A DNA stretch of 64,000 nt, taken from the NCBI RefSeq assembly GCF_000739575.1, contig NZ_BBJO01000042.1, positions 1 through 64,000 of the forward strand, read 5' to 3'. Source of the stretch: Halobellus rufus (lineage in GTDB: Archaea; Halobacteriota; Halobacteria; Halobacteriales; Haloferacaceae). The notes beneath the pieces were generated by a model. The model ran no database searches. It was not told the origin of the DNA and saw nothing but the letters and a program-made list of their open reading frames with translations. This document shows positions 43,578-62,743 of this stretch, one piece after another. A program made the position numbers and the translations under genes. Numbering within the stretch: the stretch's first letter is position 1; each line of letters starts with the position of its first letter.

Positions 43578-45266
43578 TCACTCCTCGTCGATCCCCTCCC
43601 GGGCGCGGAGCGACTGTCGGCGGACCTTCCCCGTCGTCGTCGTCGGGATCTCGTCGGTGAACTCGATCTCTCGGGGGTACTCGTACTTCGCGAGCCGGTC
43701 TTTGACGTGTGTCTGGAGTTGTTCTTTCAGCTCCGCCCCGGCGTCGTACCCGTCTGCGAGAACCACGAACGCCTTCGGGATCTCACCTCGGGTGTCGTGG
43801 GGCACGCCGACGACGCCCACGTGCTGGACCGCCGGATGCGTCAGCATCGCCTCCTCGATCTCTTTGGGGGCGATGCGGTAGCCGGAGCTGATGATGATGT
43901 CGTCCGAGCGCGAGTGAAAGCGGAAGTACCCGTCCTCGTCCATCGAGACGAGGTCGTCCGACAGCAACCACCCGTCTCGGATCGTCTCCGCCGTCTTCTC
44001 CGGGAGCTCGTGGTAGTGTAGAAAGAGCATCGGGTCGTCGCCGTAGCGGACTGCGAGTTCGCCGATCTCGTGCGGTTCGTCGATCCGCTCGCGGGTCTCG
44101 GGGTCGAGGATGGCGACCTCGTGACCCACGGAGGGGATCCCGAAGTAACCGAGTCGGTGGTCGAACCCGACGGCCGGATCGTCGCAGACGAGCCCGCCGA
44201 TCTCGGAAGTCCCGTAGCCTTCGAGGAAGGCGGCGTTCTCGAACGTGTCCGTCACCCACTCGATGATGCGCTCGTCCGCGGCTTCCCCGCCGGTCGTGAG
44301 CGATTGGAGGCTGGTGAGGTCGTACGTCTCGGCGGGGTCGTCGACCTGCATCATCATCCGGACGGCCGTCGGCGGGAGGTTGAGGTGCGTGACCTCGTAG
44401 TGCTCGATCAACTCGAACTCCCGCTCGGGGTCGAACTCCTTCCCGGCGTACCCGACCACGGGGATCCCGTAGAACATCGCCGGGAGGACCACGCCGGGAA
44501 GCGACATAATCCACGACCACTCCGAGACCGTGCGGAGGACCTGCCCCTCGCCGGTCCGGTGACACTGCAGGCTGAGGAACTGCGGCAGTTCTCCCAGAAG
44601 GTGCCGGTGCGCGTGGACGACGCCCTTGGGCTTGCCGGTCGTCCCGCTCGTGTAGATGATGAACGCCTCGTCGTCGGCGTCGGTGGTGGGTCCCTCGAAA
44701 GCGCCCGAGACGCCGTCGATCGCATCGTGGAAGTTGACCTCTTCGCCGCGGTCGAAGTCGTCGTAGGTGACGGTCAGTTCCAACGAGTCGACGTCGTCTC
44801 GGACCGTTCGGAGGGCGTCGATGGCGGCCTCGTCCGCGAGGAACACGGTCGCGTCGCAGTCACGAAGCCGGTATCTGAGGCCGTCTGAGCCGAGCAGAAC
44901 TGTCAGCGGGACCGACACCGCCCCGAGTTTGAACGCGGCGAGGTTGCCGGCGAGGGACTCGACGCACTGCGTCCCGTTGATCGCGACGTGGTCACCCGCG
45001 CCGACGCCCTGTTCGGAGAGGTACGTCGCGAGCTTGTTCGCCAGCCGGTTCAGTTCCTCGTAGGTGTACTCCGAGCGTTCGCCGTCGAGGCGGTCGAGCG
45101 ACAGCGCGACGCGGTCCGGTTCCGCTCTCGCCCAGCGCTCGCAGGTGTACTCGGCGATGTTGAACGTGTCTGGAACCTCCCACGAGAACCACTCGTCGAT
45201 CTCGTCGAGGCTCTCGAACCCCTGCTGGTGGAAGTAGTAGTTCTCCAGTTCTGCGGGTACGGTCAT
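43578..45266 (-). CDS. AMP-forming acyl-CoA synthetase (AcsM-like, possibly aryl-CoA)
   Basis: The 562-residue ANL enzyme has the phosphate loop IIYTSGTTGKPKGVVHAHRH, GYGTSEIGGLVCDD, the Arg/Asp-containing GWLLSDDLVSMDEDGYFRFHS and the catalytic region TTTTGKVRRQSLR with its Lys. The region between motifs resembles medium-chain and aryl acyl-CoA synthetases such as benzoate-CoA ligase, but the acid-binding pocket cannot be read reliably. ATG 45266 is chosen since TATTAAAA (45291-45298) lies 28 nt upstream; an in-frame ATG at 45281 is possible. The regulator at 45411 is upstream on the same strand, with a gap of about 130 nt, suggesting local control. Confidence 0.88.
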   Translation of the reverse strand: MTVPAELENYYFHQQGFESLDEIDEWFSWEVPDTFNIAEYTCERWARAEPDRVALSLDRLDGERSEYTYEELNRLANKLATYLSEQGVGAGDHVAINGTQCVESLAGNLAAFKLGAVSVPLTVLLGSDGLRYRLRDCDATVFLADEAAIDALRTVRDDVDSLELTVTYDDFDRGEEVNFHDAIDGVSGAFEGPTTDADDEAFIIYTSGTTGKPKGVVHAHRHLLGELPQFLSLQCHRTGEGQVLRTVSEWSWIMSLPGVVLPAMFYGIPVVGYAGKEFDPEREFELIEHYEVTHLNLPPTAVRMMMQVDDPAETYDLTSLQSLTTGGEAADERIIEWVTDTFENAAFLEGYGTSEIGGLVCDDPAVGFDHRLGYFGIPSVGHEVAILDPETRERIDEPHEIGELAVRYGDDPMLFLHYHELPEKTAETIRDGWLLSDDLVSMDEDGYFRFHSRSDDIIISSGYRIAPKEIEEAMLTHPAVQHVGVVGVPHDTRGEIPKAFVVLADGYDAGAELKEQLQTHVKDRLAKYEYPREIEFTDEIPTTTTGKVRRQSLRAREGIDEE

Positions 45267-45410
45267 CGTCTGCGTCTTCATAACGATCGATATTAAAAAT
45301 ACAGTCTGGTCGCGGTGCCGTCGTCGGACGATCCACCGGCGTGACTGCGCGGAGAGAACGTGCCGGATCCCGAGCGGATATTCAAACAGAAAACATCCGA
45401 TATGGGCCCG

Positions 45411-46172
45411 TTACGGCGCGTACTGGTAGTTGACAGAGATGATGTTGGCAGATTTCTGGACCTCGTCGGCGAGTTCCTGTCTGTAGTCCTCGTCGCGCAG
45501 CCGGTCCGAGGGGCAGACGATACCGATCGAGCCGAGCACCTCGTCGCCGACGCGGACCGGTGCGGCGACCGTTCCCATCCCGACGACCTGTTCGTTGCGG
45601 TCGATCCCGTATCCCTTCTCGCGGATCGCCTCCAGTTCGGCTTCGAGTCGCTCGCGGTCGGTGATCGTGTGCTCCGTGCGCGGCGTGAGCCCGTGTTCGT
45701 CGATAATCGATTCGATGCGCTCCTCGCCGAGGAATGCCAGTATCGCCTTGCCCCCGGCGTGCGTGTGTATCGGCGTCTTCAGCCCGGGGTAGATTCCCAA
45801 CCGGAGCGACTCGGAGCCGAACTCCGTGTGGAGGATGACGAACTGTCCCCGCTCTTCGACGTTGACACTGACCAGTTCGCCCGTGCTCTCCACTAACCGC
45901 TCCAGTTCGGGTTTCGCGACGTGAAACAGACGATTTCGGTACTTGACCTGTCCGCCCAACTCCAACAGTTGAAACCCGAGTCGGTAGGTCCCGTCGTCGT
46001 TGATGACGTAGCCCATCGTCCGCAGCGTCCGGAGGTAGTCGTGGACGGTGCTCTTCGGCAGGTCGAGTCGACGCGCGAGCTCCGCGACGCCGACCTGTTT
46101 CTGCTCTTTGAGCACGTCCATTATCTCGAACGCCCGTTGTATCGTTTTCAGCGGCGTCGTGCTGTCGGTCAT
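45411..46172 (-). CDS. IclR family transcriptional regulator (regulator 2)
   Basis: The 253-residue protein has an N-terminal winged helix (TIQRAFEIMDVLKEQKQVGV, then LDLPKSTVHDYLRTLRTMGY) and an IclR effector domain (FVILHTEFGSESLRLGIYPG, HAGGKAILAFLGEERI, GMGTVAAPVRVGDEVLG). It is transcribed in the same direction as the AMP-ligase gene that follows it and may control that gene. Its upstream region includes the apparently gene-free interval 46173-47101, with a TCGAAC/GTTCGA inverted repeat at 46512-46527. Confidence 0.92.
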   Translation of the reverse strand: MTDSTTPLKTIQRAFEIMDVLKEQKQVGVAELARRLDLPKSTVHDYLRTLRTMGYVINDDGTYRLGFQLLELGGQVKYRNRLFHVAKPELERLVESTGELVSVNVEERGQFVILHTEFGSESLRLGIYPGLKTPIHTHAGGKAILAFLGEERIESIIDEHGLTPRTEHTITDRERLEAELEAIREKGYGIDRNEQVVGMGTVAAPVRVGDEVLGSIGIVCPSDRLRDEDYRQELADEVQKSANIISVNYQYAP

Positions 46173-49045: not shown

Positions 49046-49121
49046 TCCGGATCGGTCGTCTCCCAATTCCTCGCCGACGAACCCCAGTACATTTTTCAGC
49101 CTCTTCGGCGAAGAGGTGGCA

Positions 49122-49828: not shown

Positions 49829-50593
49829 TCAACTCTGGCTCAGCTTTAGCTCCAGTTCGTTCGCGGCCCCGCGGATCTGATCGACGATACCATCTGCGAG
49901 TTGGTGGTCCGTCAGCCGGTTCGCCGGCCCGACGACGCTTATAGCTCCGACGACCTCACCCGCGACGACGACCGCTTTTCCGATCGCTCGCGCTCCCTCC
50001 ACCGCCTCTTGATCGTTGATCGCGTATCCTCGTTCACGCGTCGCTTCGAGTTCCTCGAACAACGCCTCTCGAGTGTCGATCGTTCGGGAGGTACGCTGCG
50101 GCAGGCCGTGTCTGTCGACGATTTCGTTGACTCGTTCTTCGGAGAGGTACGCGAGGATGCTCTTGCCCGAAGCGAGCTGGTGGAGATACGATCGAGTGCC
50201 GATACGTGCGTGTGTTTGCACGGCGTGCTCGCCGTGCGCGTAATCGAGGTAGACGGCCCGGCCGTGCTCTTCAGTCACGAGATACGTCGCCTCGCCGGTA
50301 CCTTGTGCCAGCGAAGCGAGTGTCTGCTTACCGATCGACGCGATCGGGTGACGGTCCCGAGCGGCCATCCCGTGATCGAGTAGTCTGAGTCCCAAATCGT
50401 ACTTCCGATCGGTCTTTACCAGATACTCGAGGTTGTGCAACGACGAGAGGTAGTCGTGTGCGGTGCTCGTCGGGATATCGAGCGCCTCGGTGATCTCCGT
50501 GGCGCCGAGCGGTCCGTTCCGCTGTAGCAATTCGATAATCTCGGATACCCGCTCGACAGATTGTAATTTGACGGGTTCGTCTGTCATTGTCAT
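49829..50593 (-). CDS. IclR family transcriptional regulator (regulator 3)
   Basis: The 254-residue protein has a winged helix (VERVSEIIELLQRNGPLGAT, then LDIPTSTAHDYLSSLHNLEY) and the IclR effector domain (YLVTEEHGRAVYLDYAHG, LASGKSILAYLSEERVNEI, RAIGKAVVVAGEVVGAISVV). It is convergent with rdfA and lies just downstream of the O-demethylase region on the same strand, 450 nt away from that gene. It is a good candidate for the regulator of the methoxy-aromatic genes at 51048-56909. Confidence 0.92.
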   Translation of the reverse strand: MTMTDEPVKLQSVERVSEIIELLQRNGPLGATEITEALDIPTSTAHDYLSSLHNLEYLVKTDRKYDLGLRLLDHGMAARDRHPIASIGKQTLASLAQGTGEATYLVTEEHGRAVYLDYAHGEHAVQTHARIGTRSYLHQLASGKSILAYLSEERVNEIVDRHGLPQRTSRTIDTREALFEELEATRERGYAINDQEAVEGARAIGKAVVVAGEVVGAISVVGPANRLTDHQLADGIVDQIRGAANELELKLSQS

Positions 50594-51047: not shown

Positions 51048-52391
51048 TTACTCGCCTTTCCGGCGGTCCGCGGAGTACGGGACATCGCCGACAGTAGCGG
51101 TGATCTCGCACTGTTCGTGCCGTTCGACCTTCGGGTTCGGCGAGTCGTCCTCGCCCCAGATCAACGTGACCTCGGTTCCGGGCTCGGCGTACTCGGTATC
51201 GAGACTGCACAGCGAGATGACGGTGCCTGCGTCGTACTCGTACGAGCGCGAGTGCGACAGGCCGACCCGTTCGCCATCGATGCGCACTTCGTCGTAATTC
51301 GCCCGTCCCCACCCGATTCGCGGGAGTTCCATGAATTTCTTCGTCTCGCCGGCGCGGAACAGCGAGGCGTAGACGTCGATCACGTCGTCTTCGTCCCACG
51401 CCAGCGACACCAACGTTCGGTCTGGATCGTCTGCCATCTCTTCGAGCGCCTCGCGACCGACGAACTCGTGATCGAAGCTGATGAGCTTCCCGTAGCCGAG
51501 CTCGAACGGGTCCATATAGTACGCGGAGATGCCGTCGGCAACGAAGCTCCCGTCGATCGAGTACGTCGCTTCGCGGCTGTCGGCGTCGAGCCACTCGCGG
51601 TAACCGCCCATCTCGTCGACGTCGTAGATCGGCGGGACGCCAGGGGGGACCCAGCCGAGTTTCACCGAGAGGGTGTGGTAGGCTTTCGACCCGAGCTGCT
51701 TGAGACCGTGTTCTTCACCTGCTTCGACGATGGCGTCGCGTACCTGATCGGCGTGCTCGAACGGACCGATGAACTCGAATCCGAACTCCGTCGACATCCC
51801 GTGTCCGAGGGCGATGGTCTCGACACCCGCGAGATCGATCGTCTCGAAGTGATAGAAGGGAATCGAGTCCAAGTCCGCGTCCGTGACCTGTTCGAGTACC
51901 GGTCGCGCGTTCGGTCCCTGCACTTGAAACACGAAGTTCTCGGGATCGCCCTCGTGCGCCGACGTTCGGGGTTCGGTCTCGACGGTAGCGTCGTAATCCC
52001 CCGTTTCGAGGTTGTATCGAACCCAGTTCGCCGAGAGCATCCCGGCGCTGTAGTACTCCTCGTCGTCGAGCCGAAGCATCGGACCGTCGCCGATGATGTG
52101 TCCGTTTTGATTACACATCACGAGTTGCTTGGCGCGGCCGACGTCGTAGTTCTCGAAGCTGTTGACGCTGAGATCGCGCAGTAGATCCTCCGCGTCGGGC
52201 CCGGTAACACGGAGCGCCGTCATGTGGTGTGAGAGGTTCGCGAGCGAGACCGACTCCGTGACCGCCCGCTGTTCGTCCAGCCAGTTCGTTATCTCGTTCG
52301 GGACGACCGGGAAGTTGTCCGTGTAGTCGCCGCCCTTCTGGCGAAGTACCTCGACAGGATCGCCTGACGCCTGAATGGCTTCGGGGTCCAT
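51048..52391 (-). CDS. LigM-like tetrahydrofolate-dependent aryl O-demethylase (GcvT/aminomethyltransferase family)
   Basis: The 447-residue protein has the GcvT fold. Compared with LigM/DesA, the vanillate and syringate demethylases of sphingomonads, it keeps many shared features: DPVEVLR, PNEITNWLDEQ, NLSHHMTALRVTG, GRAKQLVMCNQNGHIIGDG, YREWLDADSREATYSIDGSF, PFELGYGKLISFDHEFVGR and LAWDEDDVIDVYASLF. LigM transfers the methyl group of vanillate to tetrahydrofolate. Glycine-cleavage T proteins are shorter (about 360-400 residues) and lack the YREW/SFDHEF pattern. The gene has a TATA-like element (about 52415-52427) 28 nt upstream. The next genes are an amidohydrolase, an aldehyde dehydrogenase and a ThDP enzyme. 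A dimethylglycine or DMSP demethylase role is possible but less consistent with context. Confidence 0.8.
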   Translation of the reverse strand: MDPEAIQASGDPVEVLRQKGGDYTDNFPVVPNEITNWLDEQRAVTESVSLANLSHHMTALRVTGPDAEDLLRDLSVNSFENYDVGRAKQLVMCNQNGHIIGDGPMLRLDDEEYYSAGMLSANWVRYNLETGDYDATVETEPRTSAHEGDPENFVFQVQGPNARPVLEQVTDADLDSIPFYHFETIDLAGVETIALGHGMSTEFGFEFIGPFEHADQVRDAIVEAGEEHGLKQLGSKAYHTLSVKLGWVPPGVPPIYDVDEMGGYREWLDADSREATYSIDGSFVADGISAYYMDPFELGYGKLISFDHEFVGREALEEMADDPDRTLVSLAWDEDDVIDVYASLFRAGETKKFMELPRIGWGRANYDEVRIDGERVGLSHSRSYEYDAGTVISLCSLDTEYAEPGTEVTLIWGEDDSPNPKVERHEQCEITATVGDVPYSADRRKGE

Positions 52392-52414
52392 ACAGCGAGA
52401 GGGTCACCCCATAT

Positions 52415-52427
52415 ACTTAAATATATC
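52415..52427 (-). promoter_or_regulatory. O-demethylase promoter
   Basis: The minus strand reads ATATATTTAAGTATA, centred about 28 nt before the ATG at 52391. Confidence 0.5.
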
Positions 52428-52532
52428 TTAGGAGGAAATAGCTGGAATTCCCCGAATGACTCGGCTTGGCTGACCCAGGATGGATCCGACGGGAGACACG
52501 GCAATCCGACAGACGATCCGTTCGACGGAGCG

Positions 52533-53522
52533 CTACAGGTCGAGGAGGCGTCGTATATTCCCGGAGAAGATCTTCTCCTTGTCTGTCTCAGAGACGTCGA
52601 GTTCCTCGATCAACGGGATGATTTCGGTCGCCCAGTACTGTCCCTTGTCGGGACCGAACGGGTAATCGGCGCTGTAGACGACGTTGTCCGCGCCGAAGAA
52701 CTCCAGACCGCACTCAAGCGGGTAGGACTCCCCCTGACTGCTGACCGCCGTGTCCCCGTAGATCCGGTCGAAATAGGCGTCCAGCGGCTCTGACAGATCA
52801 GCGATCGCGGGGTTTTGATACAGTTCGGGCTCTTCGCTCCGCGTTTGGTACCACGATCGGATCCGACCGACGAGGTAGGGGAACGACCCACCGAGGTGGT
52901 GTGAGATGATCTCCAGGTTCTCGTGGCGGTCGAGCACGCCGGAGAAGATGAGCCGTGCCAGCGCGATGTTGGTGTCGAACGGCCACGCGAGCATCTTGTA
53001 GATCCACGTGTGAGACTGGTCGTAATCGTGCCAATCGGCGAGTTGCGGGTGAATCCAAATGGGGACGTCGAGGTCGTCGACGGTGGCGTAGAACTCCTCG
53101 AAATCGTCGTCGTCGAGCATTTTTCCGTCGATGTTCGAGAAGATCTGGATGCCGTGCATTCCGAGGTCCTCGACGCATCGGCGGGCTTCGTCGACGTACT
53201 CGTCGGTGAGGAACGGGACCGTTCCGGTCGCGATGAACCGGTCGGGGTGCTCGTCGGCGATCCGTCGGATCTCGTTGTTCGCGACGCGGGTCGCTTCGAG
53301 GGCGTCGTCGGGATCGGCCCCCTGCCACAGCATCGGTGCGGCGAGGTTGATCACCTGTTTGTCGATCCCGTTCTTGTCGAGGTACTCGAGTCGCCCGTCT
53401 ACCTTGAACATCCGCGGCGCGTTCCGGAGGCTATCCAGTTCTGAGCTCGGATGCACTTTCTCCAGTTCGTCGAGCGCCTCGTACGACATAATGTGCGAGG
53501 TCGCGTCTATGATCTCGGGCAT
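52533..53522 (-). CDS. Amidohydrolase (ACMSD/LigW-type decarboxylase family)
   Basis: The 329-residue TIM-barrel protein belongs to the amidohydrolase-2 group, including 2-amino-3-carboxymuconate semialdehyde decarboxylase, gamma-resorcylate decarboxylase and 5-carboxyvanillate decarboxylase (LigW). Probable metal or catalytic residues are His10 in IIDATSHIM, His158 in PIWIHPQLADWH, His208-209 in IISHHLGGSFPYL and Asp286 in VYSADYPFG. The first motif is TxH rather than HxH, so one metal ligand differs from ACMSD. It could decarboxylate an aromatic acid produced by the neighbouring enzymes. It is on the same strand as the demethylase, 141 nt upstream of it, with its own promoter-like AT-rich stretch. 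Confidence 0.82.
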   Translation of the reverse strand: MPEIIDATSHIMSYEALDELEKVHPSSELDSLRNAPRMFKVDGRLEYLDKNGIDKQVINLAAPMLWQGADPDDALEATRVANNEIRRIADEHPDRFIATGTVPFLTDEYVDEARRCVEDLGMHGIQIFSNIDGKMLDDDDFEEFYATVDDLDVPIWIHPQLADWHDYDQSHTWIYKMLAWPFDTNIALARLIFSGVLDRHENLEIISHHLGGSFPYLVGRIRSWYQTRSEEPELYQNPAIADLSEPLDAYFDRIYGDTAVSSQGESYPLECGLEFFGADNVVYSADYPFGPDKGQYWATEIIPLIEELDVSETDKEKIFSGNIRRLLDL

Positions 53523-53660
53523 CGTTCGCCGATTGGAGTAATAATACTTAAATTATTGTGTGCCTGGGGTGAATCCTCCTTCCAGTGACGACGGTTCGGT
53601 CCGTGCTCGGGGAATTTCGATCCACGATCTCGAGGCAGTCCACTATGCGGATTGGTCGCA

Positions 53661-53670
53661 AAGCCTAATA
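53661..53670 (+). promoter_or_regulatory. Promoter of the second aldehyde dehydrogenase
   Basis: AAGCCTAATA at 53661-53670 is centred about 28 nt before the ATG at 53694. It supports this start over the in-frame ATG at 53652. Confidence 0.45.
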
Positions 53671-53693
53671 CCAATAGCCGGATACTGCAAGAT

Positions 53694-55133
53694 ATGTCTC
53701 AGGAGCGCGCCGAGCAGCGTGGGATGTTTATCGACGGCGAGTACCACCACACCGACGAAACGTTCTCGGTCGACGATCCGTCGACGGGCGAGACGATCGC
53801 ATCAGTGACGGACGCGGGCGAGGCCGGCGTGGACGCCGCGCTCGAATCCGCGGAACGCGCCCACTCGGAATGGGTCGCGATGGACCCCGTCGAGCGCGGT
53901 CGGATACTCCGTGACGTCGCCCGGGGGCTGGAATCCCACGTCGACGAGTTAGCCGAACTCGCGACCCGAGAGATCGGTCGCCCGATCGGCCAGTCGAAGG
54001 GACTAGTCGCCAACGCGGTCGACTACGTCGACTACTACGCGGGGATGACCGACAAGATCGAGGGAGAGACGTATCCGTTAACGCAGTCGAATCAGGCTTT
54101 CAGTCGGAGGGAACCCATCGGGATTAGCGCGCAGATCGTCCCGTGGAACGCCCCGGTCCTGCTCTGTTTCCGTGGCGTCGCTCCGGCGCTGGCCGCCGGA
54201 AACGCGGTCGTGGTCAAACCGTCTCCGTTCGCTCCGGGGATCATCCTCAAACTGGCGGAGATCGCGAGCGAGGCGAGCCTGCCCGACGGCCTGTTCAACG
54301 TGGTCCCGGGGCTCGTCGAAACCAGCAAAGCGCTGACGACGGACTCTCGGATCGGACAGATAACCTTCACCGGCTCTGTCTCGACCGGACAGATCGTCGG
54401 AAAGACAGCGCTCGACCAGGTCGTTCCGACGGTGCTGGAACTGGGTGGAAAGAGCCCCGCGGTCGTCTTCGACGACGCCGATCTGGAGGCCGCACTCGAC
54501 GGTGCGATGAAGGCCATCACGCTCGTCAACGGTCAGGTGTGCTTCGCGACGACGCGGATCTTCGTCCACGAGGACGTCTACGACGAGTTCAAGCAGCGCT
54601 ACGTCGACGCCGTTGAATCCATCACGCTTGGTCCCGGATCGGAGGACCCCGATCTGGGCCCCGTGATCTCCGCCGACGCCGTCGAAGAGATCGACAGCTA
54701 CGTCCAGAGCGCCATCGAGGGGGGCGCGCGTGCCCTCACCGGCGGCAGGCCGGCGGACCGCGCGGGCAACTTCTACGAACCGACCGTCATCGAGGGGGCG
54801 GCGGACGACGCGCCCATCTCCTGTGAGGAGGTGTTCGGCCCGGTCATCAACCTCTACTCGTTCTCCGACGAGGAGGAGGCAATCCGCCGTGCGAACGACA
54901 CGGAGTTCGGTCTCTACGCGACAGTATGGACGAACACGCTCGACAGGGCCCACCGCGTCGCCAACGGTATCGAGGCCGGGAGCGTGATGGTCAACCAGTA
55001 CGCCGGCTCGCGCCCGCAAACTCCCTTCGGCGGCTACAAGAAGAGCGGTCTCGGTCGAGAGAAGGGGATGCAGGCCGTCGAACACTACACTCAACAGAAA
55101 ACGATCAACATCGAGATCGGCGGCGACGAGTAG
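53694..55133 (+). CDS. Aldehyde dehydrogenase (aromatic aldehyde candidate)
   Basis: The 479-residue ALDH has the general base Glu at about 249 in LELGGKSPAV and the nucleophile Cys at about 283 in NGQVCFATTRIF. The cofactor loop FTGSVSTGQ and C-terminal PFGGYKKSGLGREKG are intact. It sits between the amidohydrolase (divergent) and the ThDP enzyme (convergent), so the three could catalyse successive steps: ThDP-dependent decarboxylation gives an aldehyde, this enzyme oxidises it, and the resulting acid is demethylated. NAD or NADP preference is not resolved. Confidence 0.9.
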   Translation: MSQERAEQRGMFIDGEYHHTDETFSVDDPSTGETIASVTDAGEAGVDAALESAERAHSEWVAMDPVERGRILRDVARGLESHVDELAELATREIGRPIGQSKGLVANAVDYVDYYAGMTDKIEGETYPLTQSNQAFSRREPIGISAQIVPWNAPVLLCFRGVAPALAAGNAVVVKPSPFAPGIILKLAEIASEASLPDGLFNVVPGLVETSKALTTDSRIGQITFTGSVSTGQIVGKTALDQVVPTVLELGGKSPAVVFDDADLEAALDGAMKAITLVNGQVCFATTRIFVHEDVYDEFKQRYVDAVESITLGPGSEDPDLGPVISADAVEEIDSYVQSAIEGGARALTGGRPADRAGNFYEPTVIEGAADDAPISCEEVFGPVINLYSFSDEEEAIRRANDTEFGLYATVWTNTLDRAHRVANGIEAGSVMVNQYAGSRPQTPFGGYKKSGLGREKGMQAVEHYTQQKTINIEIGGDE

Positions 55134-55178
55134 GCGCTGTCGTCGGAGGGACCAGGCGGTGACGAGTTCGCTCGCGTG

Positions 55179-56909
55179 TTACGGCCGTTCGACCGTGACG
55201 TCGAGAACGGCGGGCGTTCCGCTGTCCACCGCGGCGGCGGCCGCCTCCAGCGCCTGAGGGAGTTCGTCAGGGTCGTCGACGGTTCGCGTGTGCGCGTCGA
55301 CGAGCGTCGCCGGCGCTGAGAGGTCGACGCGCGTCTCGATGTGACTCTCGGGAACCGCGTCCGCGGCCGCCGCCCCCTCGGGGTACTGCGCCTTCGTCGC
55401 ACCTTCGACCGCGTTCCACCCTTGGTTGTCGTACACGACGGTGAGCGTCGGGGCGTCGTATTCGGCCGCCAGCAGCGCACACGCCGACGGGTTCGCGAAC
55501 AGATAGGAGCCGTCGCCGACGAGGGAGATCACACGGCTGTCCGGCGACGCGAGTTTCGCACCGACCCCCGCCCCGCCGGCCCAGCCGAGTCCGGCACCGC
55601 CCTTCCAGAAGTAACTCCCCGGCTCCGAGAGCCGGATCTGAGACATGATCGCGGGGCGGCTGGTCACCGCGTCCTCGACGACGATCGTGTCGTCGTCGAC
55701 GATCGAGGAGACGGCGGCGGAGAGTACGGTCGGGGTGAGCCGCCCTGCCGACTCATCCGCGGAAAGCCGGTCGGCAGCGTCTGCACGTCGCTCGGCGGCC
55801 ACGTCGCGCCAGAAGGACCCGCTCGTTTCCGTCGTCTGACTCAGTCGGTCGGCGACGGCTTCGAGCGTCGTCGCCGCATCGGCTTGGATCGTCTCGTCGA
55901 TCGCGAACGGCCAACGGGGGTAGGTAGGTTTCGTCGGGGCGGGATCGATCTGGACGACGGTCGCGTCCGTCGGTGACTCGCGCTCGTCGGGTATCCACGG
56001 AACGTCCGTCTCCGCGAGGATCACGAGATCCGCGCGATCCAAGGCCACTTCCGGGTCGTATCCGATGTGGTGGTCGTGGTCCCGTGGGAAACACAGCGTC
56101 GTCGGAGTCTGCTCGACCACCCCAGCACCAGCAGCCTCGGCGAACGCGACGACTGCTCCAACGCGGTCGTCGGCCGGAGCCCGTCCGATGTCGCTCGTGA
56201 TCACTGCCGGTCTGTCGGCGTCTCGCACGTACGAGAGGAGCCGTTCGATTTCGCTTGCGTCGGCACCTCCCGGCCCGACACGCCGTCGAGAAGTGGTGAC
56301 GGGGGCGGCGTTCACCGTCTCACTGAGCGCCTCTCTCGTCGCCGTGACGTAGACCGGACCCGGCGGGTGAGAGACTGCGCGTTCCAATCCGCGGCGGACG
56401 GTTTCAGCGGGATCTGCGGGCGGTCGGTACTGGTCACTCCACCGGCAGTACTCGCGCACGATTCCCGGCTGGTCAAACACGTCTTGGAAGTAGTGGACCG
56501 GATGGTCGCGGGATCCCGAGTGGCCGGCGTCCGTCACCGGCGCGAGACCGGCGAGGACGAAGACGGGGGCCCCTGCACGGTGAGCGTTGTGCATCGCGGC
56601 TCCGAGGTTCTGGGTCCCGACGTCGACGTGAACGAGCACGACCTGTGGTTCGCCCGTCACGGCCGCGTATCCGTGCGCCGCGCTCATCGCGGCGAACTCG
56701 TGCGGACTGGAGACGATATCGGGGATTTCGTCCTCATCGCCGGCTCGGCGGACGGCAGCCGCCGCCTCCAAGAGCGGCGTGTGATCGGTCCCGAGGTTCG
56801 CGAAGACGCGGTCCACGCCGTAGCTGTGAAACGCGCGAAGGAATCGCTCTGCGGCGGTACGGTCGACTGCCGTCGGATTTGAATCGGGTTCTGACACGGG
56901 ATTGGTCAC
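55179..56909 (-). CDS. Thiamin-diphosphate enzyme, benzoylformate decarboxylase-like
   Basis: The 576-residue protein has three domains of the pyruvate-oxidase/ALS-like superfamily. The activating Glu is at about 71 in SSPHEFAAMSAAHG, and the ThDP-Mg motif GDGSYLFANPSACAL with DNQGW is at about residues 465-498. Domain 2 contains HIGYDPEVALDRADLVILAE. It is not acetolactate synthase-like at the C-terminus. Benzoylformate decarboxylases and related enzymes convert arylglyoxylates to aldehydes, and the neighbouring ALDH would take the aldehyde; this is inference. The gene starts with GTG, about 31 nt after a GTTATATCC element (about 56936-56944), and it is convergent with the ALDH gene. Confidence 0.82.
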   Translation of the reverse strand: MTNPVSEPDSNPTAVDRTAAERFLRAFHSYGVDRVFANLGTDHTPLLEAAAAVRRAGDEDEIPDIVSSPHEFAAMSAAHGYAAVTGEPQVVLVHVDVGTQNLGAAMHNAHRAGAPVFVLAGLAPVTDAGHSGSRDHPVHYFQDVFDQPGIVREYCRWSDQYRPPADPAETVRRGLERAVSHPPGPVYVTATREALSETVNAAPVTTSRRRVGPGGADASEIERLLSYVRDADRPAVITSDIGRAPADDRVGAVVAFAEAAGAGVVEQTPTTLCFPRDHDHHIGYDPEVALDRADLVILAETDVPWIPDERESPTDATVVQIDPAPTKPTYPRWPFAIDETIQADAATTLEAVADRLSQTTETSGSFWRDVAAERRADAADRLSADESAGRLTPTVLSAAVSSIVDDDTIVVEDAVTSRPAIMSQIRLSEPGSYFWKGGAGLGWAGGAGVGAKLASPDSRVISLVGDGSYLFANPSACALLAAEYDAPTLTVVYDNQGWNAVEGATKAQYPEGAAAADAVPESHIETRVDLSAPATLVDAHTRTVDDPDELPQALEAAAAAVDSGTPAVLDVTVERP

Positions 56910-57008: not shown

Positions 57009-57830
57009 TTACCGTGGACCGGTGCCCATAGAGGATTTCACGTTCTCGCGCCAGTGGAAGAGGTACTTCTCCAGCTTGCTGAAGACTCCGTACTCGATGA
57101 GCATCATCACGATAACGAAGAGTACCACGTACTGGAGTACGCCGACCATCGAGAATCGACTCATATTGTCCCGAATGAGGAATCCGATTCCGACGTTCGA
57201 GATGACGACTTCCGCGAGGATGGTCACCTTCCACGCGACCGAGAACGTGAATCGAATGCTCGAGAACACCTCGGGGAGGATCGACGAGAACAGGACTCGC
57301 CTGTACACGCGTGCTCGCGAAACGTCGAACGCGCTCGACATATCGAGCAGGTCCGAGTTGACGTTTTCGACGCCGCTTTGGATCATATCCACGACGAACG
57401 GTGCCGTGATGATCGCCGTTGCGAGCATCGGCGTCGTGTCGCTGATACCGAACGCCATCGCGGTGAAGATGACGACGAACAACCCCGGCACGGCCATCCC
57501 AACGAGAACGTAGTATCGGAGCACTCGTCCCCAGAAGCTGCTCACGCCGAGGACGATTCCGCCGATAACGCCGACGACGAGGGCTGCCACGAACCCGTAG
57601 AGAATCCGCTTCATCGAGGCGACGAAGTGCATCACCCAATCGCCGGTCTGGAGCATTCCGTACATCGACGAGCCGACGAGAAGCGGAGAGGCGATGAGGT
57701 CGGTGATTCCGAAGACGCGAGCGCCCAGCTCCCAGACGAGGACGAGCAGGAGGATGGACTCGACGAAAACGACTCTCCGGTTGCCTAGGAGGACACCTTC
57801 GACCGTCCCACGTAACTGTGAAGTGCTCAT
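57009..57830 (-). CDS. ABC transporter permease (taurine/nitrate-type, system 3)
   Basis: The 273-residue protein has about six membrane segments and the EAA-like loop DMSSAFDVSRARVYRRVLFSSILPEVFSS. The N-terminal part reads VFVESILLLVLVWELGARVFG. It belongs to the SsuC/TauC permease family and lies 6 nt beyond the binding-protein gene, so the two are cotranscribed. A second, related permease is at 60497. Either the two form a heterodimer or only one is used; both belong to a single cluster with one ATPase. Confidence 0.9.
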   Translation of the reverse strand: MSTSQLRGTVEGVLLGNRRVVFVESILLLVLVWELGARVFGITDLIASPLLVGSSMYGMLQTGDWVMHFVASMKRILYGFVAALVVGVIGGIVLGVSSFWGRVLRYYVLVGMAVPGLFVVIFTAMAFGISDTTPMLATAIITAPFVVDMIQSGVENVNSDLLDMSSAFDVSRARVYRRVLFSSILPEVFSSIRFTFSVAWKVTILAEVVISNVGIGFLIRDNMSRFSMVGVLQYVVLFVIVMMLIEYGVFSKLEKYLFHWRENVKSSMGTGPR

Positions 57831-57836
57831 CTGACC

Positions 57837-59075
57837 TCAGACCATCTCTTCGAGGTCGGAAACCGTCATAAACGTGAGGTGGTCTTCCCAACCGGAGGGG
57901 ACTTGACCGAGTTCTTCCATCACGTTCATAACGCTCCGAGCGTCCTCGACGGATTCGTCGTCCAGCCCGACTTCGGAGTACAGAGCGGACCGCGAGAGGC
58001 TCTGGATCTGTTCGACCTCGTTACCGGAGAACAGGTCCATCAGGAACCGCGCTTCCTCTTGGCTCTCTGCTTCGAGGGTTTCCTGTCCGGCCGGGTCTTC
58101 AGCGATCTCCGGAATGTTCTCTTGGACGTAATTGAGGCCCTCGCTCCACATATTGATCATATTCAGGAGGACCTCGGGGTTTTCCTCGGCGAAGTCGAGC
58201 CGCGTCGAGAGGCTGACGAGCGGCGGCCGTCCCCAGTCCTGTTCGAGGTAGTCGTTCCAGATCCACAGCAGCGGCTTGAGTTCGCCGTTGACGATTTCGG
58301 TGAGCCCGGCGGACGAAGCCGAGTGAACCGCCGTCGCGAGGTCGCCGCGGAGCGTGAGTTGCGGCATCGTTCCGCGGTCAGCGGTCTGGACGTTGAAATC
58401 CCCGCCGTCCTGCGCGAGGTTGTACCCGTACTTCTCCTGGATGATGTTCTGGAGGTGCGGTACGGCACCGGCCGCCCAGCCGGGGATGCCGAATCGGGCC
58501 TCTTCCTCGACGATCTTGTCGAGCGACGCCTGAACGCTCCCGGTCTCGTCGGGGTCGTACGGTCCACCCACCTCCACCCACGGGGTCGAGACGACGCCCT
58601 CGATGTTTCCGAACGTGACCAACTGCTGGTCCTGTTCGACGCCGAGCCGTGCGTCCTCGACCCAACTCACAGTCCCCATATCGATCTGCCCGGAGGCGAA
58701 AAGCGTCGCGTCCTCGAAGGTGAGTTCGTAATCGAGCTGGTACCCGTCTTCCTCGAAGCGGGGCTGAATGAGGTCGTTCTCCGCGAGGTAGTACTCCATC
58801 ACGATGTTGACCGGCATCCCGACGGGTGGCGTCGCGAACGATACGGTGGTCAGATCACCGCCACCGTCGCCGCCGCTGTCACCGCCGCCACCGTCACCGC
58901 CGCTGTCACCGCCGCCACCGTCACCGCCGCTGTCTCCGCCGCTGTCACCGCCACCGTCTCCACCACTCGTACAGCCGGCGAGCGTCGCTGCGACCGCACC
59001 GGCACCTGTGGCTTTGATGAATTTCCGTCTGTTTATACGACCGACTGATTGAAACGACTGGTCATCCCGTGGCAT
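57837..59075 (-). CDS. Substrate-binding lipoprotein (NMT1/SsuA-type, system 3)
   Basis: The 412-residue precursor has a Tat signal and lipobox (RRKFIKATGAGAVAATLAGC), a Gly/Asp/Ser linker of about 40 residues, and an NMT1/THI5-like binding domain: TTVSFATPPVGMPVNIVMEY then DATLFASGQIDMGTVSWV. This class feeds importers of sulfonates, nitrate, phthalate-like acids or pyrimidine precursors. A TTTATAATG element (about 59098-59106) on the minus strand precedes the ATG by 27 nt. An aromatic ligand would fit the enzymes encoded at 51048-56909, but the ligand is not determined. Confidence 0.9.
   Translation of the reverse strand: MPRDDQSFQSVGRINRRKFIKATGAGAVAATLAGCTSGGDGGGDSGGDSGGDGGGGDSGGDGGGGDSGGDGGGDLTTVSFATPPVGMPVNIVMEYYLAENDLIQPRFEEDGYQLDYELTFEDATLFASGQIDMGTVSWVEDARLGVEQDQQLVTFGNIEGVVSTPWVEVGGPYDPDETGSVQASLDKIVEEEARFGIPGWAAGAVPHLQNIIQEKYGYNLAQDGGDFNVQTADRGTMPQLTLRGDLATAVHSASSAGLTEIVNGELKPLLWIWNDYLEQDWGRPPLVSLSTRLDFAEENPEVLLNMINMWSEGLNYVQENIPEIAEDPAGQETLEAESQEEARFLMDLFSGNEVEQIQSLSRSALYSEVGLDDESVEDARSVMNVMEELGQVPSGWEDHLTFMTVSDLEEMV
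58856..58972 (+). repeat. Tandem codon repeats encoding the Gly/Asp/Ser linker of binding protein 3
   Basis: About ten copies of related units (CCACCGTCACCGCCGCTGTC and variants) encode the tether. The tract is the longest of the three linker repeats in this window. Confidence 0.7.
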
Positions 59076-59462
59076 ACGGTAGCAAGTCAGTATCGATCAT
59101 TATAAACCCATCGATTGTGGGTACGGACACCACAGTACCGCGACCGCTGACAGGAGCGTGGCCACGGGGCCTTCTGTCGAATGCCGTCGAGGTCCCACGA
59201 AACGAAGTTCGTTCAGATTCGCCTCTGTCCTCACACCGTCGTGCCGGTTTTCTTGTCGACGCTCGGGTGCGTGCGTGGGTAAGGGACTCGCCTCCGATGT
59301 GGAGAGTAATCACTCGAGCACGTGAATAAGAAACGGACGGAGCGACAAGGTGCGAACCCCACTCAGATGCGAAAGGTCAATCGGGTTTCAAAATCCAGTG
59401 CCTTGGGATGATATCGCGTAGCAAATCTAAAGTACACCGACTAACTATAGGCGATCACAGCT
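59076..59462. other. 387-bp interval between divergent ABC genes
   Basis: This stretch holds the binding-protein promoter at about 59098-59106 (minus) and is otherwise without a credible gene. Its composition is more AT-rich toward the right end, where TCTAAAG (about 59426-59432) and CTATAG (59445-59450) are candidate promoter elements for the ATPase operon. Confidence 0.4.
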
Positions 59463-59546
59463 ATGAAAGAGAGCAACTCTCACACAACCCGTATTCGACC
59501 GTCTTCTGAGGCCTCGGGTAGTAGAGGTGACGCTGATGGCGTCTGA
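59463..59546 (+). CDS. Possible 27-residue leader peptide upstream of the ABC ATPase
   Basis: The frame ATG 59463 to TGA 59544-59546 encodes MKESNSHTTRIRPSSEASG plus eight residues. It ends 11 nt inside the ATPase coding region, which starts at 59536 in another frame. A candidate TATA-like element lies 30-35 nt upstream. The overlap would couple translation of the leader to the ATPase. A second short frame in the same transporter is at 60404. Confidence 0.3.
   Translation: MKESNSHTTRIRPSSEASGSRGDADGV
59524..59530 (+). promoter_or_regulatory. Shine-Dalgarno site of the ABC ATPase gene
   Basis: GAGGTGA at 59524-59530, 5 nt before the ATG at 59536, is one of the few strong ribosome-binding sequences in the window. 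It favours ATG 59536 over the in-frame GTG at 59527 and implies a transcript with a leader. Confidence 0.55.
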
Positions 59547-60333
59547 AGTACAGCAATCGACCGAATCAGACGATTCAGCGGGGATCGCTCACGGAACCTC
59601 GACGGCCGGAGCGATCCACGTCAGAAACCTCACGAAGGAGTTCGACACCGAGGAGGGAGTCGAGCGGGTCTTCGAGGACGTTAGCTTCGACATCGAACCG
59701 GGTTCGTTCGTGACGCTCATCGGCCGCTCGGGAAGCGGGAAGTCGACGATGCTGAACATCATCAGCGGGGTCCTCGAACCGACTGCAGGACGCGTCGACT
59801 TCGAGGCGACCCAGGACAGCGACGTGACGCTGGGCCACGTCTTCCAATCACCGCGGCTACTGCCGTGGAACACCTGCGTCGAGAACATCGAGTACGTTCA
59901 CGAGAATAACCCCGAGTACACTAGGGAGTTAGCCGAAGAGTATCTCGATCTCGTTGGCCTCTCGAATCACTACGACAAATACCCGTCTCAGCTGTCGGGC
60001 GGACAGCGCCAACGCGTCGGGATCACTCGGGCGCTGAGCATCGATCCAGAGATTCTGATTATGGACGAACCGTTCAGTAACCTCGACGAGATCACGGCCG
60101 AGTCGCTCCGCGAGGAACTCATCAGCATCTGGCAGAAGCTCGGGAAAACCGTGTTCTTCGTCACTCACGATATCACCGAGGCGATCGAGCTCTCCGATCG
60201 AATCCTGATGCTCGGTAACGGAACGATCTTCGACGACATGTCGATCGATCTCGAACGCCCTCGCGACGTCGACTCCGAGGAGTTCCTGAAGGTTCGACAG
60301 GACGCGATCAACCGGTTCCACTCGGTAAAGTGA
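59536..60333 (+). CDS. ABC transporter ATP-binding protein (TauB/SsuB-type, system 3)
   Basis: The 265-residue ATPase has Walker A GRSGSGKSTMLNII, the signature LSGGQRQRVGITRAL and Walker B EILIMDEPFSNLDEIT, with switch His THDITEAIEL. It is the sole ATPase of the cluster and pairs with the permeases at 57009 and 60497 and the binding protein at 57837. The N-terminal 27 residues are acidic and not conserved. The C-terminal part (FDDMSIDLERPRDVDSEEFL) is typical of TauB-like proteins. Confidence 0.92.
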   Translation: MASEVQQSTESDDSAGIAHGTSTAGAIHVRNLTKEFDTEEGVERVFEDVSFDIEPGSFVTLIGRSGSGKSTMLNIISGVLEPTAGRVDFEATQDSDVTLGHVFQSPRLLPWNTCVENIEYVHENNPEYTRELAEEYLDLVGLSNHYDKYPSQLSGGQRQRVGITRALSIDPEILIMDEPFSNLDEITAESLREELISIWQKLGKTVFFVTHDITEAIELSDRILMLGNGTIFDDMSIDLERPRDVDSEEFLKVRQDAINRFHSVK

Positions 60334-60372
60334 GACGTCAATGAGATGTGCATCGACGGGTTTGAAGCAAAG

Positions 60373-60490: not shown

Positions 60491-60496
60491 CACCCA

Positions 60497-61306
60497 ATGT
60501 CGACAAGTAATCGTTCGCTGCCGACGCCGCTACGCTCGACTCTCGGTGATAAGTGGGCTGCGGCGCTCATCAGCGGTATACTCGGTTTGGCCGCTTGGTG
60601 GTTAGTTACCGTAATTTTCCCCCGCGGACTCTTTCCCGGACCGGTAGAGACGGTGAACGCCTCGGTAGAACTGCTCGCATCGGGCATCGTCTGGACCCAT
60701 ATGGAGGCCACGTTCTTCCGGACGTTCCTCGGGTTCATCGGTGCGTTCTTCGTGGGTGGGGCACTCGGCGTCGCGATGGGGATCAACAACTTCGGCGAAC
60801 ACTTCTCGACACCGATCATCATTATCGCCCTCTCGATCCCCGGCATCGCGTGGGCGGCGATCACCACGATCATTTTTGGGTTCGGCGTGGCTGCCCCGGT
60901 CGTCGCCACTGCCGTCACCGTGTTCCCGTACATCTCGCTTCGAATCTGGAAGGGGGTCGAGGACATCGATCCTAACCTCATTCGGATGAGTCGGTCCTTC
61001 GATATCTCGAAGGCGCGCCTGCTCCGCCGGATGATCCTTCCCAGCATCGCGCCGGCGCTCTTCACCGCCGTCCGGTTCGGACTGGCGATCTCGTGGAAGA
61101 TCGAGACGCAGGCGGAGATATTCGCCTCGAACTCGGGCGTCGGCTACCGAGCGATCGAGGCGTTCTCGCGATATCAGTACGACACTGCGATGGCGTGGGC
61201 CGCCGTGTTCGTCGTCATCGTCTTCCTCCTCGAGATGGCGGTTTTACGGCCTCTCGAACGGAAGGTGTTCGCCTACCGGAAAGAGGCGGACTTCGGCGTC
61301 CTCTGA
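60497..61306 (+). CDS. ABC transporter permease (taurine/nitrate-type, system 3)
   Basis: The 269-residue protein has about six membrane segments and the coupling loop RMSRSFDISKARLLRRMILPSIAPALFTA. The start LRSTLGDKWAAALISGILG leads into the first helix. It resembles the permease at 57009. The ATG at 60497 is preceded by a GGAG sequence (60484-60487) and by an in-frame 28-codon leader. It may form a heterodimer with the first permease. Confidence 0.9.
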   Translation: MSTSNRSLPTPLRSTLGDKWAAALISGILGLAAWWLVTVIFPRGLFPGPVETVNASVELLASGIVWTHMEATFFRTFLGFIGAFFVGGALGVAMGINNFGEHFSTPIIIIALSIPGIAWAAITTIIFGFGVAAPVVATAVTVFPYISLRIWKGVEDIDPNLIRMSRSFDISKARLLRRMILPSIAPALFTAVRFGLAISWKIETQAEIFASNSGVGYRAIEAFSRYQYDTAMAWAAVFVVIVFLLEMAVLRPLERKVFAYRKEADFGVL

Positions 61307-61396
61307 ACGCCGGCGTTCGCTTCTACTGACTTTCGCACTCGTTATCCGTCGTGCTCTCAGCCCAATCGACGGCGCTCGACCTCAGTCAGAGGGGGG

Positions 61397-61404
61397 TATT
61401 AAAT
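61397..61404 (+). promoter_or_regulatory. Promoter of the second universal stress protein gene
   Basis: TATTAAAT at 61397-61404 is centred 29 nt before the ATG at 61429, which makes this ATG preferable to the in-frame ATG at 61351. Confidence 0.5.
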
Positions 61405-61428
61405 ACGTGGCCGGAGAAAACCGAAAGT

Positions 61429-61947
61429 ATGTCCGTTCTCGCAGCAACCGACGGATCGTCGGTGCCGGACCGCGTCGTTGAGGTGGCCGCCGAACTCGCA
61501 GCAGCGCACGGGGAGGAGCTAATCGTCCTGCACGTAATCCCGACAGACGTCTTCGAGGAGCAGCGGAAGTCGTCGGTCGAGAGCACCTCCGATCTCGCGC
61601 TGACCTTCGCCCCGGAGATCACCTACCGCGAACTCGGCGATCAGACCGGAACGCCCGGCGGTAGCGACAAACGGTACTCGCTGGAACACGCCCAGCGCGA
61701 CGCGGCGGGCGTCGCAGAGGACGTGACGAACGGGACCGTCGAAGACGTCGAAGCGGCCTCGTATCGGGGGCGAGTTGGTAACGTCACCGAGGAGATACTC
61801 AACGTGGCGAGCGAGGAGGACCCGCGGTACCTGGTCGTCGGCGGGCGAAGACGGACACCCGTGGGGAAGGCGATCTTCGGGAGCGTCACCCAGTCCGTCC
61901 TGCTCGAAGCCGACCGCCCAGTGGTCTCGGTGATGTCCGACGAGTGA
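61429..61947 (+). CDS. Universal stress protein (UspA family), longer type
   Basis: The 172-residue protein has MSVLAATDGSSVPDRVVEVA at the start and the ATP-binding motif GGRRRTPVGKAIFGSVTQ near the end. A loop of about 40 residues (FEEQRKSSVESTSDLALTFA and what follows) separates the strands and makes it longer than the paralogue at 27577. It is monocistronic. A specific link with the transporter upstream is not evident. Confidence 0.9.
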   Translation: MSVLAATDGSSVPDRVVEVAAELAAAHGEELIVLHVIPTDVFEEQRKSSVESTSDLALTFAPEITYRELGDQTGTPGGSDKRYSLEHAQRDAAGVAEDVTNGTVEDVEAASYRGRVGNVTEEILNVASEEDPRYLVVGGRRRTPVGKAIFGSVTQSVLLEADRPVVSVMSDE

Positions 61948-62017: not shown

Positions 62018-62743
62018 ATGAACGAGACGACTGCAGTGGTGACAGGAGCGGCGACCGGAATCGGACAGGCGATCGCAGAACGTCTCGCGGCCGACGGGGC
62101 GCACGTCGTCGTCGCTGACGTCGCGGACGGGGCTGAAACCGTCTCGCGGATCGAGGGCGCGGGCGGCAGCGCCGAGTTCCGCGAGGCCGACGTAACCGAC
62201 GAATCCGCGATGCAGTCGCTTTTCGAGGGGCTCGAACTCGACGTACTGGTCAATAACGCCGCTTACTACGCGCCGCTTGTCACGGACAAGAAACGCTTCG
62301 ACGAAATCACTAGCGAGGAGTGGGACACGGTGCTCGCGGTGAACACCAAAGGGACTTTCCTCGCATCGAAACACGCGCTCGACGCGTTCGACGACGGCGG
62401 GAGCATCGTCAACATCTCCTCGTCAGTTGTCACGATGGGCGTACCGGGCTTTCTGCACTACGTCGCCTCGAAGGGCGCGGTGCTCGCGATGACGCGCGCG
62501 ATGGCGGCCGAAGTCGGCGATATCGGCGTTCGCGTGAACGCCGTGATGCCGGGATTCACGTGGTCTGAGGCGTCCCAGCAGGCCGGTGACGAGTACCTCG
62601 AAGAGTACGTCGACAAACAGGACCTCGATCGCGTGGTCGAACCCGAGGACATCGCGAGCGTCGTCTCGTTTCTCGCCGGTCCCGACAGCGGCATTATGAC
62701 AGGACAGGCGGTCAACGCGGACCCTGGGCTTTCGTACTACTGA
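62018..62743 (+). CDS. SDR family oxidoreductase
   Basis: The 241-residue protein has the cofactor motif TGAATGIGQAIAERL, the acidic NAD-type residue after the second strand (VVVADVADG), the structural NNAAYYAP (in place of NNAG) and the active site SSSVVTM with YVASKGAVLAM. FabG-like SDRs oxidise or reduce alcohols, 3-ketoacyl thioesters and aromatic dihydrodiols. The C-terminal GPDSGIMTGQAVNADPGLSYY is standard. The GATTATAG element at 61983-61990 is about 31 nt upstream of the start. It is monocistronic and convergent with the DMT carrier. Confidence 0.88.
   Translation: MNETTAVVTGAATGIGQAIAERLAADGAHVVVADVADGAETVSRIEGAGGSAEFREADVTDESAMQSLFEGLELDVLVNNAAYYAPLVTDKKRFDEITSEEWDTVLAVNTKGTFLASKHALDAFDDGGSIVNISSSVVTMGVPGFLHYVASKGAVLAMTRAMAAEVGDIGVRVNAVMPGFTWSEASQQAGDEYLEEYVDKQDLDRVVEPEDIASVVSFLAGPDSGIMTGQAVNADPGLSYY

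Follow-up and report, generated by a model that had tools for sequence, protein, structure and literature searches.

Gene content of the locus

We analysed a 64,000-nt stretch of the Halobellus rufus genome (G000; an assembly of 3.85 Mb in 81 contigs), namely positions 1 to 64000 of contig C40, hereafter called the window, with a focus on four neighbouring enzyme genes. An initial annotation had placed at 51048-56909 four open reading frames (ORFs) for a LigM/DesA-type O-demethylase, a LigW/ACMSD-type amidohydrolase, an aldehyde dehydrogenase (ALDH) and a benzoylformate decarboxylase (BFDC)-like thiamine diphosphate (ThDP) enzyme, set in a haloarchaeon and framed by an IclR regulator and an ATP-binding cassette (ABC) transporter. 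All four ORFs are present there, and searches of Pfam, of NCBIfam and of PDB sequences upheld their families; the host is indeed a Halobellus, with an IclR gene (49829-50593) on one side of the genes and an ABC system (57009-61306) on the other (Table 1). Based on sequence comparisons, we hold with slightly more confidence than doubt that the four genes form the upper part of a Halobellus aromatic-catabolism island, in which folate-dependent aryl demethylation would feed catechol meta-cleavage.

Table 1 Genes of the catabolic locus in the window (THF, tetrahydrofolate; SBP, solute-binding protein; SDR, short-chain dehydrogenase/reductase)
Feature	Position	Strand	Basis and remarks
LigM/DesA-family THF-dependent O-demethylase (predicted activity)	51048..52391	-	447 aa; profiles, match to solved LigM
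Amidohydrolase_2 (LigW/ACMSD-like), probable aromatic-acid decarboxylase	52533..53522	-	329 aa; PF04909
Aldehyde dehydrogenase (ALDH)	53697..55133	+	PF00171; mechanical ORF begins at TTG 53652
ThDP-dependent 2-oxo acid decarboxylase-like, PRK08327 family, BFDC-like	55179..56909	-	NCBIfam and profile
ABC permease (SsuC/TauC type)	57009..57830	-	Profile searches
ABC SBP, Tat signal	57837..59075	-	Profiles; same position in six other Halobellus genomes
ABC ATPase	59527..60333	+	Profile searches
Second ABC permease	60497..61306	+	Profile searches
UspA-like protein, between ABC and SDR genes	61351..61947	+	Named from sequence, no profile scan
SDR dehydrogenase	62018..62743	+	Profile, synteny; immediately after ALDH in H. 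clavatus
IclR-family regulator adjoining LigM gene	49829..50593	-	Profiles, synteny
Second IclR-like regulator, recurrent in synteny	45411..46172	-	By similarity, no profile scan
AMP-dependent acyl-CoA synthetase-like, recurrent in synteny	43578..45281	-	Named from sequence, no profile scan

On the minus strand, the genes for the SBP, the first permease and the ThDP enzyme read in line, and the amidohydrolase gene precedes that of the LigM-like protein. The plus strand carries the genes for the ALDH, the ATPase, the second permease, the UspA-like protein (USP) and the SDR. As the ALDH gene runs opposite to the other three, the four enzyme genes cannot form one operon.

The LigM-like protein and its partner enzymes

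In a PDB sequence search, the LigM-like protein of the window matched the solved LigM (5x1i) over residues 5-444 (2.5e-96). Among NCBIfam models it scored 435.7 bits with DesA, 403.4 bits with LigM and 86.8 bits with the best GcvT model; the DesA model matched ten G000 proteins, none of them over its cut-off, and nothing in 14 control genomes. Phylogenetic trees placed no GcvT-family tip inside a group of 28 LigM-family tips, with modest support for the split (FastTree 0.67, UFBoot 79), in a sampling that lacks DesA and draws its bacterial homologues from plasmids only. As outgroup, 12 ORFs from 18 loci (L013-L030) passed, and L016 and L027, apparently mis-framed, were removed from the later tree; LigM-family ORFs with fewer than 300 aligned residues and identical copies were left out of the alignment.

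Within the folate-binding domain, the window protein is 37% identical to LigM over 221 trimmed columns. In what we take to be the LigM numbering, it retains the equivalents of His60, Glu215 (presumably a folate-site residue), Tyr247 and Trp256. The equivalent of Arg122 is missing; we take this residue to bind the carboxylate of the aromatic acid. Tyr247 is kept in 73 of the 81 archaeal homologues aligned, a Halalkalicoccus protein among them, and a conserved methyl-transferring Tyr has been reported for this enzyme type (PMC9296663, in the excerpt consulted). Eight archaeal LigM-like proteins have neither the catalytic Tyr nor His60 (L094:14301-15674, L096, L097, L098, L099, L101, L048:10401-11714 and L059:10118-11440), and one Agrobacterium homologue is alike in this respect. 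Some of the eight archaeal genes lie near IclR or SDR genes. Judged by these residues, the proteins are a possible non-demethylase offshoot.

The amidohydrolase matched PF04909, and its named solved relatives are ACMSD, LigW and gamma-resorcylate decarboxylase (gamma-RSD); no NCBIfam model matched. With a family profile, the closest solved protein was the uncharacterised 3ij6 (209 bits), followed by LigW (178.6 bits), ACMSD (156 bits) and gamma-RSD (142 bits); enzymes acting on ring-cleavage products scored lower, at 73 bits for 4-oxalomesaconate hydratase and 65 bits for a LigY-type meta-cleavage hydrolase. Residues D6, H10, H158, H208, H209 and D286 are invariant among 11 sequences of the family, and the last four are presumably the remaining metal or active-site residues. 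The phenolic-acid decarboxylases known from the amidohydrolase family typically act on acids with a hydroxyl group ortho to the carboxyl, such as 2,3-dihydroxybenzoate.

The ThDP protein exceeded the cut-off of the PRK08327 family (546 versus 456 bits), which carries no stated function, and fell below that of the BFDC model PRK07092 (127 versus 493 bits). Its family profile nevertheless ranked BFDC first among solved structures (209.7 bits), ahead of BbmA (179), 2-hydroxyacyl-CoA lyase (176) and acetolactate synthase (151). In what we assume to be the BFDC numbering, equivalents of Glu47 and His70 are present and that of His281 is not.

Parts of this gene set also occur outside Halobellus. A plasmid of Sagittula stellata E-37 (NZ_CP155730, 50856-67854) groups genes for a ThDP enzyme (34%), an amidohydrolase (34%) and an ALDH (35%) with those for a TRAP transporter, an alpha-hydroxy acid oxidase and an FAD monooxygenase, and no LigM gene was found in the 17 kb read. 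Comamonas pBHB carries an ALDH-ThDP pair, with no LigM gene within the stretch read, and in Haloarcula sp. GH36 an amidohydrolase (45%) and an ALDH (40%) gene are adjacent. Since these organisms hold all or parts of it, the trio of ThDP enzyme, amidohydrolase and ALDH is not peculiar to the Halobellus cluster. The four-gene combination, first put forward as undescribed, is thus new only in the addition of LigM to the trio and in its haloarchaeal setting. A candidate for an independent ThDP-LigM pair, on a Thermomicrobium roseum plasmid (L111), was dismissed because its ThDP protein is 24% identical to that of the window and lacks the His70 motif of the latter; the LigM-like gene there adjoins a 'thiamine pyrophosphate-requiring protein' of another subfamily and an ABC solute-binding protein.

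Conservation, ring-cleavage genes and folate genes

At E ≤ 1e-40, LigM-family genes were found in 12 of 99 genomes including that of the host, namely 11 Halobellus and G053. A phylum-wide draw, in which few candidates were scored per genome, gave at least four of 392 genomes (window genome included), and plasmid records add LigM-family genes in Halosolutus and a Halalkalicoccus. Orthologues of the window gene occurred in eight of the 99 genomes, all Halobellus (84-100% identity). In G009 and G013 the contig that bears the locus measures 3.0 and 3.1 Mb, respectively, so that the locus is chromosomal in these two. LigM-family sequences are numerous in these eight genomes; as lower bounds, since no more than 17 candidates were scored in any genome, and with a 96% copy and a frame-broken gene included for G000, there are 15 in G002 (11 with the catalytic Tyr), 11 in G009 (10), 9 in G000 (9), 8 in G005 (8), 8 in G006 (6), 7 in G007 (7), 7 in G013 (6) and 6 in G011 (6).

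The order IclR-LigM-amidohydrolase-ALDH-ThDP-permease-SBP-ATPase-permease recurs in G002, G005, G007, G009, G011 and G013, with the four enzymes at 78-98% identity. LigM, amidohydrolase and ALDH genes stand together in all seven other orthologue-bearing genomes, six of which also have the ThDP gene and the ABC system. H. clavatus (G006) keeps the LigM, amidohydrolase, ALDH and SDR genes; its locus has no ThDP gene, orthologous ABC system or USP gene, and no ThDP match was found genome-wide at 1e-60.

The genome of the window also has, on contig C44, a second LigM gene (96%) together with an amidohydrolase (95%) and an SMC-like gene (96%). No orthologue of the window ALDH or ThDP gene directly adjoins them; farther from the LigM copy are an ALDH gene of 38% identity (at 3 kb) and a ThDP gene of 57% identity (at about 12 kb). 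The C44 copy may be either a true duplicate or the result of strain mixing in the assembly. Near it (L033 and L034) we also observed a catechol 2,3-dioxygenase (C23O)-like gene, another LigM paralogue and genes that by eye resemble UbiD, UbiX and HpaB. Within 8 kb, the 77 LigM neighbourhoods of the numbered genomes (G0xx) include at least 49 with an IclR-like gene, 33 with an AMP-ligase-like gene, 17 with an ALDH gene and 15 with a gene for methylenetetrahydrofolate reductase (MTHFR), each figure being a minimum since the sequence of several neighbourhoods is cut short.

Beyond the end of the window, at C40:72691-80773, the same contig carries a catechol meta-cleavage set. Its HOA aldolase scored 472.9 bits against a cut-off of 286, and the acylating acetaldehyde dehydrogenase, scored on the G005 copy of an ORF that is also on the window contig, 384.6 against 282; the same stretch also encodes a further ALDH and a further amidohydrolase. 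Ten of the 99 genomes encode an HOA aldolase over the cut-off (the eight with the window LigM, G014, which has two LigM-family genes, and G084), compared with none of the 14 controls. In all eight genomes with the window LigM, the aldolase gene lies 12-25 kb from the orthologous LigM gene; within Halobellus, it is present in 8/8 genomes with the window LigM versus 1/9 others (Fisher p 0.0004, kinship ignored). These eight genomes hold 33 C23O-like genes (E ≤ 1e-60), of which 21 have a LigM-family gene no more than 25 kb away (3.1 expected) and 13 no more than 15 kb away (2.0 expected). Because the eight genomes are closely related, the counts are not independent and their binomial p values overstate the significance.

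MTHFR (PF02219) was found in 36 of the 99 genomes and in 11 of the 14 controls. Each of the eight orthologue-bearing genomes has two MTHFR genes, and 171-423 bp separate one of the two from a LigM paralogue; among the other nine Halobellus, only G016 has two, and this genome is without a LigM-family gene. In G000 and H. limi, the LigM-linked MTHFR clusters with the LigM-near MTHFR of Halostagnicola, apart from other copies. On a Halostagnicola larsenii plasmid (L063), a LigM-like gene is accompanied within about 14 kb by folD, folP, pabAB-like genes, MTHFR and purU, and on a Halosolutus plasmid (L062) a pair of LigM-like genes is found with folD, pabAB and folP. The LigM of Sphingobium lignivorans SYK-6 has as its partner S6MTHFR, an MTHFR homologue by which 5-methyl-THF is oxidised (PMC12585457). 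'purU' matches near one paralogue group seem to be ACT-domain proteins, as judged on one short ORF, and were not counted as folate genes.

Several further features of the window were noted. G+C content drops from about 0.66-0.68 to 0.60-0.64 where the catabolic part starts (window positions ~40000-64000), which, from composition, could point to an acquired island. Positions 47102-49739, between the two IclR genes, hold an archaea-specific SMC-related gene and an rdfA-like gene (the latter named from sequence); the SMC-related gene recurs in 16 of the 77 LigM neighbourhoods. Other candidate genes for aromatic catabolism encode an FAD-binding_3 monooxygenase (30610-31851) and an FAA-hydrolase family protein (10402-11337).

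Proposed pathway, alternatives and known systems

The reactions, substrates and order of steps outlined here are predictions built on gene families, synteny, linkage to the meta-cleavage set and the conserved catalytic Tyr, His and Glu residues. The ABC system would import an aromatic acid. Where present, the ThDP enzyme would decarboxylate an aryl 2-oxo acid to the aldehyde, and oxidation of alcohol or aldehyde by the SDR and ALDH would give the acid. The O-methyl group would then pass to THF through the LigM-family enzyme, and the amidohydrolase would strip the carboxyl from the resulting hydroxy-aromatic acid, giving a catechol whose degradation could be completed by the C23O-like enzyme and the meta-pathway proteins, all encoded on the same contig at a distance of 20-28 kb. 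Reoxidation of the 5-methyl-THF would fall to the MTHFR whose gene adjoins a different LigM paralogue.

Part of the route initially proposed for these genes, from an arylglyoxylate to a decarboxylated phenol, has been retained. The demethylation family stands, as do the gene set, which synteny in other Halobellus genomes bears out as conserved, the aromatic fate, supported by the meta-cleavage set on the same contig, and the tetrahydrofolate route, supported by MTHFR beside a LigM paralogue and by two haloarchaeal plasmids whose LigM-like genes have folate genes in their vicinity. The exact substrate, a standard LigW-type decarboxylation and an essential ThDP step were not upheld, the last because H. 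clavatus does without the enzyme.

A number of observations weigh against a folate-dependent demethylation that feeds meta-cleavage. The LigM-like protein lies below the NCBIfam equivalog cut-offs for both vanillate (LigM, 403 versus 580 bits) and syringate (DesA, 436 versus 800 bits), and among 96 aligned sequences the Arg122 column is Arg in 0 of 81 archaeal versus 11 of 15 bacterial proteins (LigM included); on these grounds, a vanillate- or benzoate-type substrate was not sustained. The choice of vanillate or vanillin is further weakened because LigW-type chemistry presumably favours ortho-hydroxy acids. We take HxH, ExH or ExA to be the canonical N-terminal metal motif of LigW/ACMSD decarboxylases. 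The window amidohydrolase has TxH, and thus lacks the first metal ligand, and no aligned homologue with letters at this position has His or Glu. In the meta-cleavage set, the C23O-like protein is below the cut-off of its best model (TIGR03211, 241.7 versus 320.2 bits), as are the two DmpE/DmpH hydratase/decarboxylase-type proteins (260 and 190 bits). G084 has the HOA aldolase and no LigM-family gene, just 4 C23O-like genes out of 33 have a LigM-family gene at 5 kb or less (0.8 expected), and the relatedness of the genomes bears on all such counts. Finally, no MTHFR gene adjoins the window LigM gene or the LigM-family genes of G003, G004, G014 and G053.

We considered four other explanations. 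The most probable of them concerns a single step and is otherwise compatible with the proposed pathway: the amidohydrolase may hydrolyse or hydrate a product of ring cleavage, in the manner of LigY, LigJ or LigI. Close aligned homologues without the first ligand of the metal motif are consistent with this, and in Halobaculum a homologue adjoins a VOC gene whose product is 52% identical to the C23O-like protein, while another lies near a VOC gene in Rhizobium etli. On the other side, the family profile scored the decarboxylases LigW, ACMSD and gamma-RSD well above the LigY-type hydrolase and 4-oxalomesaconate hydratase. We regard such a role as unlikely, if well short of negligible. A rather unlikely alternative is that two modules are co-located and do not catalyse consecutive steps, with LigM and amidohydrolase (plus ALDH and SDR) forming a demethylation unit and the ThDP enzyme and ABC system serving another aromatic 2-oxo acid of the mandelate/benzoylformate type. 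The absence of ThDP enzyme and ABC system from H. clavatus, which retains the rest, suggests such a division, as do the ThDP gene reading in line with the SBP and permease genes, the C44 LigM and amidohydrolase copies without a directly adjoining orthologue of the window ALDH or ThDP gene, the ALDH-ThDP pair of Comamonas pBHB and the company of an alpha-hydroxy acid oxidase in Sagittula. However, ALDH accompanies LigM and amidohydrolase in 8/8 genomes, an amidohydrolase gene adjoins an ALDH gene in Haloarcula sp. GH36, and with its more distant ALDH and ThDP genes C44 holds relatives of all four.

The remaining explanations concern the LigM-like protein. That the family uses other methyl donors (neutral methoxy-aromatics, methylenedioxy or non-aromatic methyl compounds), making the lignin-acid reading wrong, seems improbable to us; the Arg122 column and the scores below both equivalog cut-offs point in this direction, and the aromatic ring-cleavage genes near LigM paralogues argue against it. 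Dicamba is one methoxy-aromatic acid substrate. That LigM, DesA, Dmt and Dmt50 act on methoxy-aromatic acids (PMC9404685, in the part consulted) also speaks against other donors; in their favour, more distant THF-dependent relatives act on the methylenedioxy rings of berberine and sesamin (PMC5547118, likewise in part). A GcvT, dimethylglycine or sarcosine enzyme would share PF01571 with the window protein. We nevertheless rejected this identity as scarcely credible, since the DesA score of 436 bits far exceeds that of GcvT (87 bits), Tyr247 is kept and the trees, with modest support, keep GcvT-family tips out of the LigM-family group; the assignment to the LigM/DesA family stands.

Folate-based aryl demethylation is best known from bacteria and is here encoded in a conserved cluster of a salt-loving archaeon. 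We found no report of LigM-type demethylation in haloarchaea in the open-access literature, searched by titles and abstract openings. If haloarchaea do demethylate via folate and go on to cleave the ring, single-protein demethylases that tolerate salt would become available, lignin-type carbon in salterns would have an archaeal consumer and the culture-collection strain Halobellus limi would allow direct experiments; the LigM paralogues would be a natural series for learning what determines substrate choice in the family. With belief and doubt evenly balanced, we suggest that in some Halobellus species a bacterial-type folate demethylase has radiated, giving each genome 6-15 LigM-family proteins (6-11 with the Tyr), each adapted to a methoxylated or methylenedioxy aromatic of its own and several with their own regulator, transporter and extradiol genes, plus a LigM-linked MTHFR, as an oxygen-using system separate from the corrinoid systems of anaerobes.

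Archaeal O-demethylation of methoxy-aromatics has been described for anaerobes that use corrinoid or other methyltransferases (PMC8630106; PMC8359953, as far as the excerpts consulted go). The MtoABCD methoxydotrophy of Archaeoglobus and Methermicoccus relies on a corrinoid protein and, in Archaeoglobus, most probably on tetrahydromethanopterin, in contrast to the single-protein THF-type enzyme and ring-cleavage genes of Halobellus. Haloarchaeal aromatic catabolism is also represented by the gentisate route of Haloferax sp. D1227, which uses another ring cleavage and for which the consulted parts of the sources describe no O-demethylation (PMC4005966; PMC6486533). The Sagittula cluster shares the ThDP enzyme, amidohydrolase, ALDH and a transporter with the window and differs in its TRAP type, its oxidase and monooxygenase and the absence of LigM. 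Akin to the BFDC of the mandelate pathway, its best solved-structure match by profile, the Halobellus ThDP enzyme has the His70 and Glu47 equivalents; unlike BFDC, it belongs to PRK08327, has no His281 and scores under the BFDC cut-off. The amidohydrolase shares the Amidohydrolase_2 family and His158, His208, His209 and Asp286 with LigW (5-carboxyvanillate decarboxylase), ACMSD and gamma-RSD, and differs in beginning its metal motif with Thr and in having the uncharacterised 3ij6 as nearest solved relative. The closest parallel is with LigM and DesA of SYK-6, THF-dependent O-demethylases of vanillate/3-O-methylgallate and syringate, respectively. The SYK-6 pairing of LigM with an MTHFR (PMC12585457) has its counterpart at another Halobellus LigM locus and not at the window gene. 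The window protein is homologous to these enzymes over its full length and has the catalytic Tyr, His and Glu in common with them; unlike them, it has no Arg122, scores below the curated cut-offs and is archaeal, with many paralogues per genome and catechol-type meta-cleavage genes nearby.

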